Assembly: GCF_010730575.1 (NCBI RefSeq)
Contig: NZ_AP022614.1
Span: forward strand, 2,046,001-2,110,000
Origin: Mycobacterium parmense
GTDB taxonomy: Bacteria > Actinomycetota > Actinomycetes > Mycobacteriales > Mycobacteriaceae
DNA: 64,000 nt
Reading direction: 5' to 3'
The number at the start of each line of letters is the position of its first letter. Position 1 is the stretch's first letter. The position numbers and the translations under genes were made by a program. The notes beneath the pieces were generated by a model, which had not been told where the DNA came from, ran no database searches, and was given only the letters and a program-made list of their open reading frames with translations. Below are positions 44,232 to 46,146 of this stretch, piece by piece.

Positions 44232-44328
44232 CGATCGCGCCCTTCTCCCGCCTAAGCGGTGCGGATGTGTCGCGGGTGATGCTCAAAATTACCCGATGGA
44301 CGAAGCGATCAGAAATGTTCGGCAGAAT

Positions 44329-44355
44329 CACTAATGTACTAGTAGTTCATTAGTG
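44329..44355. promoter_or_regulatory. Palindromic operator between tetR and qcrB paralog
   Basis: CACTAATG and CATTAGTG form a perfect 8-bp inverted repeat separated by 11 bp (centre TACTAGTAGTT, itself partly symmetrical). The site is markedly AT-rich for this genome and stands 98 bp from the tetR start and about 130 bp from the qcrB-paralog start. It probably binds the divergent TetR protein and overlaps promoters for one or both genes. Confidence 0.75.
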
Positions 44356-44484
44356 TACTGTCTGTTCTATCCCGTCCGGCCCGCGGTCTCGCGCCCGCTC
44401 CTCGCCGCGACGGTCCCACGCGCGCTGGTCGTCCCCCGGGCCGACCGGCGGTCCCGGCTCGACCCACACCGGAGGGGAAAACAG

Positions 44485-46146
44485 ATGAGTTCGCGAATCG
44501 ACATGGGCTCGGTCCTCGCGCACCAGGCCGCGGCGACGGACACCCGCTATCACCCGGCGGCGGCGGTTCGCCGCCAACTGAACAAGGTCTTCCCGACGCA
44601 CTGGTCCTTCCTGCTCGGCGAGATCGCGATGTACAGCTTCATCGTGCTGCTGATCACCGGCGTGTACCTGACGTTGTTCTTCGACCCGTCGATGACAGAG
44701 GTCACCTACAACGGCGTCTATCAGCCGCTGCGGGGCGTCGAGATGTCCAAGGCGTACGCGTCGGCGCTCGACATCTCGTTCGAGGTGCGGGGCGGGTTGT
44801 TCGTGCGGCAGGTCCACCACTGGGCCGCCCTGCTGTTCGCGGCCGCGATCATGGTGCACATGGCCCGGGTCTTCTTCACCGGAGCCTTTCGCCGGCCGCG
44901 CGAGGCCAACTGGGTGATCGGGTCGCTGCTGCTGATCCTGGCCATGTTCGAGGGCTTCTTCGGCTACTCGCTGCCAGACGACCTGCTCTCGGGCACCGGC
45001 CTGCGGGCGGCGTTCTCCTCGATCACGCTGGGAATCCCGGTGATCGGCACCTGGCTGCACTGGGCGTTGTTCGGTGGCGACTTCCCCGGTGACGTCATCA
45101 TCCCGCGCCTGTACGCCATCCACATCCTGCTCTTCCCGGGCATCATGCTCGCGCTGATCGGGCTGCACCTGGCGATGGTGTGGTTCCAGAAGCACACCCA
45201 GTTCCCCGGGCCCGGACGGACCGAGCACAACGTCGTCGGCGTGCGGGTGATGCCGGTGTTCGCCGTGAAGTCGGGCGGCTTCTTCGCGGCGGTGGTGGGA
45301 TTGCTGGGCCTGATGGGCGGGCTGCTGCAGATCAACCCGATCTGGAACCTGGGCCCCTACAAGCCATCCCAGGTCTCGGCGGGCTCGCAGCCGGACTTCT
45401 ACCTGATGTGGACCGACGGGCTGGTCCGGCTGTGGCCGGCGTGGGAGTTCTACTTCTGGCACCACACGATTCCCGCCGCGGTGGCCGTCGCGGTCCTGAT
45501 GGGCGTCATCCTCGGCGCGCTGGTCGTGTACCCGTTCCTGGAGCGGCGGTTCACCGGCGACCGCGCCCACCACAACCTGCTGCAGCGTCCCCGCGACGCA
45601 CCGGTGCGCACCGGGATCGGGACGATGGCGATCGCCTTCTACATCGTGCTCACGTTCTCGTCGTTCAACGACATCATCGCTTACCAGTTCGACATCTCCC
45701 TGAACGCGATGACGTGGATCGGGCGCATCGGGATGGTGGTGCTGCCACCGATCGTCTACTTCGTCACCTATCGCTGGTGTGTCAGCCTGCAGCGCAGCGA
45801 CCGCGCGGTGCTCGAGCACGGCGTCGAAACCGGGATCATCAGGCGCTTGCCGCACGGGGCGTACATCGAAGTGCACCAACCGCTGGGCCCCGTCGACGAA
45901 GGCGGCCACCCGATCCCGCTGCAGTACCAGGGCGCCCCGATCCCCAAGCGGCTGAACAAACTCGGCATGGGCGGTCGGCCGGGCTCGGGCAGCTTCCTGT
46001 TCGCCGACCCGCCGGCCGAAGCGGGCGCGCTACTGCGGGCGACGCACGCCGGCGAACAGCGCGCCCTGACCGCACTGCGCGAACGCCAGAACGGCAACGC
46101 CACCAACGGGAACGGCCGGGCGTCACGGGAGGCCGACGAGGGCTAG
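44485..46146 (+). CDS. qcrB: Cytochrome b of the bc1 complex, solitary QcrB paralog
   Basis: A 553-residue integral membrane protein closely resembling mycobacterial QcrB (549 residues) over its whole length. The four haem-ligand histidine regions are intact (VRQVHHWAALLF, MVHMARVFF, AIHILLFPG, IGLHLAMVW), with the quinol-site segment WPAWEFYFWHH and the actinobacterial C-terminal extension (ETGIIRRLPHGAYIE). It is expected to oxidise menaquinol within the bc1-aa3 supercomplex. ATG 44485 has GGAGGGG upstream. Oddly, no qcrA, qcrC or ctaE is adjacent, while the normal qcrCAB operon lies elsewhere in mycobacteria; this copy sits behind a TetR operator. Its stop overlaps the convergent Rv1481-like gene by 4 bp. 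Confidence 0.92.
   Translation: MSSRIDMGSVLAHQAAATDTRYHPAAAVRRQLNKVFPTHWSFLLGEIAMYSFIVLLITGVYLTLFFDPSMTEVTYNGVYQPLRGVEMSKAYASALDISFEVRGGLFVRQVHHWAALLFAAAIMVHMARVFFTGAFRRPREANWVIGSLLLILAMFEGFFGYSLPDDLLSGTGLRAAFSSITLGIPVIGTWLHWALFGGDFPGDVIIPRLYAIHILLFPGIMLALIGLHLAMVWFQKHTQFPGPGRTEHNVVGVRVMPVFAVKSGGFFAAVVGLLGLMGGLLQINPIWNLGPYKPSQVSAGSQPDFYLMWTDGLVRLWPAWEFYFWHHTIPAAVAVAVLMGVILGALVVYPFLERRFTGDRAHHNLLQRPRDAPVRTGIGTMAIAFYIVLTFSSFNDIIAYQFDISLNAMTWIGRIGMVVLPPIVYFVTYRWCVSLQRSDRAVLEHGVETGIIRRLPHGAYIEVHQPLGPVDEGGHPIPLQYQGAPIPKRLNKLGMGGRPGSGSFLFADPPAEAGALLRATHAGEQRALTALRERQNGNATNGNGRASREADEG

Follow-up and report, generated by a model that had tools for sequence, protein, structure and literature searches.

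The 64,000-nt stretch of the Mycobacterium parmense genome analysed here (the window) carries, divergent from the gene for a TetR-family regulator, a second copy of qcrB, the gene for the cytochrome b subunit of the bc1 complex, which we refer to as qcrB2. We lean towards the reading that qcrB2 encodes an isoform of the bc1 cytochrome b whose expression is regulated, as part of a sunlight-associated regulon, and which joins the ordinary QcrA and QcrC subunits. It is highly probable that qcrB2 is a member of the regulon of this TetR, and it seems reasonable to expect that light is the signal to which the regulon responds. The features that bear on this reading are as follows.

44485 to 46146, + strand: qcrB2, second cytochrome b subunit of the bc1 complex, 553 amino acids (from the frame, NF050120, identity and clade)
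43650 to 44231, - strand: TetR-family regulator (PF00440; of the rhodopsin/qcrB2-type TetR group)
44329 to 44355, no strand: operator, an imperfect 27-bp palindrome with 12 of 13 pairs and a central G, conserved in the promoters of relatives
44356 to 44375, + strand: stretch behind the operator that resembles the region before rhodopsin in M. bohemicum (by alignment)
44381 to 44477, + strand: what remains of a deleted blh, from its 3' end (by local alignment against shuffles)

A second cytochrome b gene in M. parmense

The qcrB2 frame is intact from the ATG at 44485 to the stop codon at 46146 on the + strand (553 codons), and its product scores 767.8 bits against the NCBIfam model NF050120 (bc1_QcrB_actin; cut-off 500) and matches the Pfam domains PF13631/PF00033. 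Neither qcrA nor qcrC is encoded with it at the locus. Searching the whole genome (5.95 Mb, one contig) gave exactly two QcrB matches, qcrB2 and a canonical gene, qcrB1, at C1:968641-970287 in the gene order ctaE-qcrC-qcrA-qcrB. This canonical operon rules out qcrB2 as the sole qcrB of the genome, and the view taken in the initial annotation, of a full-length solitary second copy with the core qcrCAB operon elsewhere, was borne out. The qcrA and qcrC genes gave one match each in the genome, both away from the qcrB2 locus, which rules out paralogues of either as partners for qcrB2. A TetR-associated isoform of the kind first envisaged would therefore have to work with the ordinary QcrA and QcrC, and it is likely that QcrB2 assembles with them.

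QcrB2 and QcrB1 are 82% identical. When the two sequences are compared, a stretch of 3 residues that follows residue 201 of QcrB2 corresponds to 13 residues in QcrB1; this net 10-residue insert of canonical QcrB (the CGGVGNECATAGY region; L003:2603-4315) is missing both in QcrB2 and in the M. tuberculosis QcrB chain 7e1v. In M. tuberculosis numbering, taken from an ungapped alignment to 7e1v (query 6-537) and used throughout, H111/H112, H125, H213 and H228 are invariant in 101 aligned QcrB rows; the haem histidine regions are thus kept, as first noted, and we presume that the ligands of the two b haems are among these residues. The quinone-site residues, for which we followed the list in PMC8616580 (partial text), are likewise largely kept, with all six residues of the reduction site (QN) the same as in QcrB1. 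The ratio of non-synonymous to synonymous substitution rates (dN/dS) is 0.06-0.28 in all eight QcrB2 pairs compared. Judged by these ratios QcrB2 is under purifying selection, and together with the intact frame they rule out that qcrB2 is a degenerate gene.

A scan of genome contigs, from which the best 80 loci were kept, contained seven loci (L004-L010) at which a qcrB without qcrA or qcrC has the same TetR upstream; these are from M. helveticum, M. bohemicum, three metagenome-assembled genomes (MAGs) and two M. gordonae. Members of the qcrB2 clade occur in at least 13 of 396 Mycobacterium genomes, the window included (scores of at least 1086 bits), and eight lower-ranked regions that were fetched comprised seven canonical operons and one other solitary type. 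In a FastTree phylogeny of the 101 QcrB rows, the 15 QcrB2 rows (window + 14) fall on one side of a branch with support 93, and a wider group, with support 100, unites them with four rows of M. sphagni type and with the canonical QcrBs of five small MAG genomes.

A regulator and operator shared with light-linked genes

The regulator gene matches PF00440 at 43650-44231 and, as first noted, is divergent from qcrB2; the TetR_N domain, the divergent gene and the palindrome between them form the arrangement of a TetR repressor. It can be seen that the palindrome, CACTAATGTACTA-G-TAGTTCATTAGTG, pairs at 12 of 13 positions around the central G, so that its first description as perfect was a small overstatement. 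A sigma-70 promoter scan found no promoter. The predicted structure of the TetR (predicted local distance difference test score, pLDDT, 83.4) matches TetR structures, the best-ranked with a TMq of 0.68, and because the fold search gave only general TetR matches it offers no hint of the ligand.

Relatives of this TetR (E 1e-30 or better) number 67 copies in 54 of the 396 genomes; the neighbourhoods of 63 were read and the other four were placed by coordinates next to MysA. The divergent partner is qcrB2 in 11 cases (window included), rhodopsin-blh-qcrB2 in two, a rhodopsin with no qcrB2 seen behind it in 11 (one contig ends inside the rhodopsin) and an HAD-MysA cluster in 39 (35 read, four by coordinates). 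The remainder are a TPR gene (two), an FAD oxidoreductase (one, in G120, by eye) and a contig end (one, in G365, whose mycosporine-type cluster lies on another contig). The clusters encode an HAD protein, a sugar-phosphate cyclase, in most cases an O-methyltransferase, and an ATP-grasp-like protein whose ATP-grasp match falls just under the Pfam cut-off. The best solved relative of the cyclase is 5tpr (566 bits; second 281), which we take to be a cyclase of the mycosporine (ultraviolet-sunscreen) type from cyanobacteria; we use the names MysA-D on the same assumption. Every one of the 54 genomes with the TetR contains MysA, a rhodopsin (of any kind) or qcrB2, and the TetR is present in every one of the 41 genomes (of 396) that have MysA and in all 13 that have qcrB2. 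qcrB2 and MysA co-occur above expectation (5/13 against 36/383, p = 0.006, in a test that ignores the relatedness of the genomes). In a tree of 62 TetR rows, the rhodopsin/qcrB2 type forms one group (26 rows; SH-like approximate likelihood ratio test, SH-aLRT, 98) and the window TetR groups with those of M. bohemicum, G360 and G276 (support 96); the region of the recognition helix is nearly invariant across target classes among the aligned rows.

The operator motif, allowing one mismatch at most in 15 fixed positions, was present in all 21 other TetR-rhodopsin or TetR-qcrB2 promoters and in one of two further TetR-rhodopsin promoters, and this conservation argues that the window palindrome did not arise by chance. 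It was missing from the TetR-rhodopsin promoter of G139 (four mismatches) and from both TPR cases, and the canonical qcrC promoter has no operator site. A matrix built from 22 rhodopsin/qcrB2 promoters beat all 40 shuffles in each of 36 mycosporine-type promoters (35 and that of G365; lowest score 8.8, L243). Scanning the M. parmense genome with the pattern found the qcrB2 operator and one other site at one mismatch (C1:2323137), and at two mismatches one further match, which overlaps the qcrB2 operator. The other site lies about 130 bases before a HAD-MysA-MysC-ligase cluster that has no TetR of its own and in which the ligase is a D-Ala-D-Ala-ligase-like gene.

Across 18 related genomes the pattern, at one mismatch or fewer, gave 30 places against one control match in total: 19 rhodopsin/qcrB2 promoters, five mycosporine-type promoters, the oxidoreductase of G120, three sites before photolyase genes and two others. 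The photolyase sites are in G120, G006 and G228, three of the five gordonae-group genomes searched, and in each the palindrome is directly before the gene (L285:6823-8377, tested for PF04244, in G120; L286:5343-6897; L287:5316-6873). At these three sites and at the cluster site of M. parmense the matrix beat 200 of 200 shuffles, the four places having been chosen by pattern before the matrix was scored. qcrB2 thus has the same TetR family and operator as the light-linked targets. The initial annotation had regarded the TetR as dedicated to qcrB2; given its nearest relatives at rhodopsin operons and the matching operator before the mycosporine-type cluster of its own genome, it does not look so.

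Some further TetR loci were recorded. At the second TetR of G120 (L301:5351-7300), an operator match separates the regulator from the gene that it faces, which is an FAD oxidoreductase (by eye) and not part of a mycosporine-type cluster. Two rhodopsin-type TetRs (L218:5852-6376 and L224:6283-6807) adjoin a TPR gene and are without the operator; in three other genomes the same TPR gene is found beyond rhodopsin-blh, at a distance of 4-5 kb from the TetR, and this placement suggests that the rhodopsin operon was lost at L218 and L224. Among TetRs from four genomes of other genera, one (L295) faces an HAD-MysA pair and no clear partner was seen for the other three.

The rhodopsin operon and its remnant

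At the loci of M. helveticum, M. bohemicum and one MAG (L004, L005 and L006), the order is TetR/rhodopsin/Blh/qcrB2, Blh being a retinal-forming protein. All three rhodopsins match PF01036, and Blh was confirmed by Pfam (PF15461) in L004 and L006. The best solved relatives of the rhodopsins include 9hfk, Gll0198 and xanthorhodopsin, and all three contain a YRYVDW.LTVPLLLTE stretch and the DILAK lysine, which we take to be the D-T-E and retinal-lysine motifs of outward proton pumps. The M. bohemicum blh (L143:6526-7409) matches in two frames, beside an intact rhodopsin, and may be broken.

The M. parmense genome has no PF01036 match. In its qcrB2 leader, the 97 bases from 44381 to 44477 align with the 3' end of the M. 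bohemicum blh with a score of 104, where 200 shuffles gave at most 34 (on repetition, 104 against at most 33 in 100 shuffles), and with the M. helveticum blh with a score of 53 (shuffles at most 40); the blh of L006 gave no match (27, shuffles at most 33). Read in one frame, these bases resemble the C-terminus of Blh. We conclude from this remnant, together with the stretch behind the operator that resembles the region before a rhodopsin, that rhodopsin and most of blh were lost in the window lineage.

The genes on either side of the locus are as follows.

42774 to 43565, - strand: fabG1, left flank (conserved), followed outwards by inhA and hemH (from the list of open reading frames, ORFs)
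46143 to 47150, - strand: VWA-type membrane protein, the conserved right flank, convergent with qcrB2 and overlapping its stop codon (domain named by eye)

The names fabG1, inhA and hemH are those that we presume to apply. Of the 12 other qcrB2 loci that were fetched, 10 have the fabG1 and VWA genes on either side. qcrB2 with its TetR is found at three kinds of place, namely the inhA flank, near hemH in G324 and elsewhere in G358; this last genome also has a TetR-rhodopsin pair at the inhA locus, where the contig breaks off within the rhodopsin gene. A rhodopsin is present in 32 of the 396 genomes, and in eight (G294, G241, G024, G266, G256, G054, G342 and G160) a TetR of the same type faces rhodopsin-blh divergently, the fetched stretch containing no qcrB2. 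The TetR match in G294 (L170:7976-8533) holds an in-frame stop. At L172, L173 and L175, where neither this TetR nor its operator is present, a rhodopsin and a divergent Blh have rpsO/ribF-like genes (by eye) nearby, which by gene order is a second rhodopsin arrangement in mycobacteria.

Alternative readings and comparison with known systems

In the course of events that we propose, an ancestor would have had TetR, rhodopsin, blh and qcrB2, and deletion of rhodopsin and blh would have placed qcrB2 directly behind the rhodopsin-type promoter region. The TetR would sit on 44329-44355 and keep both qcrB2 and itself off, and via the like operator at C1:2323137 would also hold the mycosporine-type cluster off in trans, until light, or a small molecule derived from light, releases it. 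QcrB2 would then be made and would join the single-copy QcrA and QcrC in the bc1-aa3 supercomplex, partly displacing QcrB1. Most likely the benefit would be that quinol oxidation continues when light harms or pre-energises the membrane, and candidate forms of it are replacement of a photodamaged subunit, work against a proton-motive force made by rhodopsin, or tolerance to quinone-like photoproducts. Near-ultraviolet (UV) light destroys menaquinone in mycobacteria, a point that our literature search did not show. More speculatively, and with some doubt on our part, non-phototrophic mycobacteria may swap the bc1 cytochrome b for a light-regulated isoform under a TetR family that also runs a proton pump, a UV sunscreen and photo-repair.

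Several observations weigh against the sunlight-regulon reading. Light is deduced solely from the functions of neighbour genes, and the putative mycosporine product from gene order and one structure match; among the NCBIfam models hit by the cluster proteins none names a mycosporine enzyme, and MysB was not found in the M. parmense genome. A reversed-pattern control also matches in this genome (one forward and one reverse match at two mismatches or fewer), so the weight of the second site rests on its place before the cluster and not on the match alone. An operator-like site in G054 and G342 is near an unrelated TetR and a Rieske-type gene (by eye), which means that the motif is not wholly private, and the three genomes with photolyase sites are close kin. 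Remnants in other qcrB2 leaders are weak (G276, 44 against at most 31; G360, 34 against at most 27) or, in six further leaders tested, absent, and the loss of rhodopsin is therefore shown for the window lineage only. Co-occurrence of qcrB2 and rhodopsin is not significant across the genus (3/13 against 29/383, p = 0.08, relatedness again ignored). Canonical QcrB pairs have somewhat lower dN/dS than QcrB2 pairs (0.04-0.10, n = 5).

A potential explanation that we regard as unlikely, but as the strongest of the alternatives, is that QcrB2 is an inhibitor-tolerant duplicate: on sensing an inhibitor of the quinol site, or a quinone-like toxicant formed by light, the TetR would allow QcrB2 to be made, and the oxidation pocket of QcrB2 would bind the compound more weakly. 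Whereas the reduction site is the same as in QcrB1, the oxidation side, tabulated at 20 positions (H195 plus 19 Qp residues), differs at seven, namely Y161F, L180F, M187I, M310L, E314D, A317V and L344V (QcrB1 to QcrB2). Val occupies position 317 in all 15 QcrB2 rows, against Ala in 72 and Ile in four of the 76 canonical-type rows, and PMC6178619 (partial text) reports A317V as a single-nucleotide polymorphism of M. tuberculosis that gives resistance to Q203. Position 337 is Ala in all 15 rows (canonical-type Trp 61, Gly 14, Ala 1), and W337 is placed near the quinone tail by PMC8616580 (partial text). However, T313 and H195, the telacebec/TB47 resistance positions, are unchanged in all 15 rows, for which reason a plain telacebec-resistance copy is not favoured; the early suggestion of a version resistant to quinol-site inhibitors or telacebec therefore retains V317 in its favour and lacks these two changes. 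Moreover, Phe161 and Asp314 also occur in canonical-type rows (4/76 and 6/76) and in all nine near relatives, no inhibitor biosynthesis or efflux gene was seen beside qcrB2 when the ORFs of the window were read by eye, and the other targets of the regulator are light-related.

Other solitary qcrB genes are known from the same searches. In Mycobacterium sp. 852002-40037 (L037:861-10853), one that is 92% identical to the canonical gene has PhzA/B (PF03284), FAD-binding oxidoreductases, a methyltransferase-like gene and MmpL as neighbours. The cluster is of phenazine type and its qcrB may serve self-protection, and it suggests that inhibitor-tolerant duplicates occur in mycobacteria. A further solitary family is found in M. 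sphagni and others (L023:6010-7635, L027:5962-7599 and L158:6408-8066); in L023 and L027 it adjoins glycogen phosphorylase, dehydrogenase and MOSC-like genes (by eye), and L110 belongs to it by sequence only. That these loci (L023, L027, L158 and L037) share the operator was ruled out, with no match within two mismatches.

Less probable still is that QcrB2 is a partner of rhodopsin, running the bc1 complex against the high proton-motive force that rhodopsin would make, and that in the window it is a left-over of declining use. The place of qcrB2 as third gene behind rhodopsin and blh at three loci agrees with this, as does the presence of rhodopsin in four of the five MAG genomes with the nearest canonical QcrBs (in one only as a partial match), and both also favour the sunlight-regulon reading, but no rhodopsin was found in 10 of the 13 qcrB2 genomes, and qcrB2 pairs from rhodopsin-less genomes are still under purifying selection. 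As for the possibility that qcrB2 is a hitchhiking duplicate, redundant with QcrB1 and regulated only because of where it happens to lie, its identity to QcrB1 and the finding that only nine positions separate the clade from canonical QcrB at the thresholds used would fit, but its retention with the TetR at three kinds of place and a dN/dS well below 1 make this the least probable reading. A fold model of QcrB2 was too poor (pLDDT 36.6) and was not used.

The literature surveyed held nothing on a regulated qcrB paralogue or on this TetR regulon, and to our knowledge QcrB, at which telacebec-type drugs are aimed, is as a rule treated as the product of a single gene in a single operon. If the sunlight-regulon reading is correct, a second QcrB isoform associated with light genes would connect respiration with sunlight in bacteria that are not phototrophs, through a light-linked regulon that lacks a description in that literature, and some environmental mycobacteria may alter the pocket of a drug target.

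Among known systems, the nearest to QcrB2 is the canonical mycobacterial QcrB of the bc1-aa3 (CIII2CIV2) supercomplex (7e1v, 8hcr, 6hwh and 7rh5), with 7e1v the best match; the haem-region histidines and the QN residues are common to both. Unlike canonical QcrB, QcrB2 is solitary, outside qcrCAB, TetR-associated, in a separate clade and altered in its Qp pocket. Proteorhodopsin has been reported in M. chlorophenolicum, M. chubuense and M. rufum (PMC4524478, partial text), and the part of that text available makes no mention of a link between rhodopsin and qcrB. With proteorhodopsin/xanthorhodopsin-type operons the window has the TetR type and operator in common, and its relatives have rhodopsin and Blh at this very locus; the window differs in keeping the blh remnant only, with a respiratory subunit as the surviving cistron. 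Actinobacterial mycosporine (MAA) clusters are described in general terms in PMC11888242 (partial text). Those of mycobacteria, with a cyclase closest to 5tpr, have the same regulator family and operator as qcrB2, although qcrB2 is not biosynthetic and their MAA product is putative. Finally, light-regulated isoform exchange is known from the psbA/D1 variants of cyanobacteria, and QcrB2 would share their logic, in that a core electron-transfer subunit is replaced in the light. QcrB2 differs in belonging to the respiratory bc1 complex of a non-phototroph, and the exchange that we propose from sequence would, if it takes place, be a respiratory counterpart of that in photosystems.

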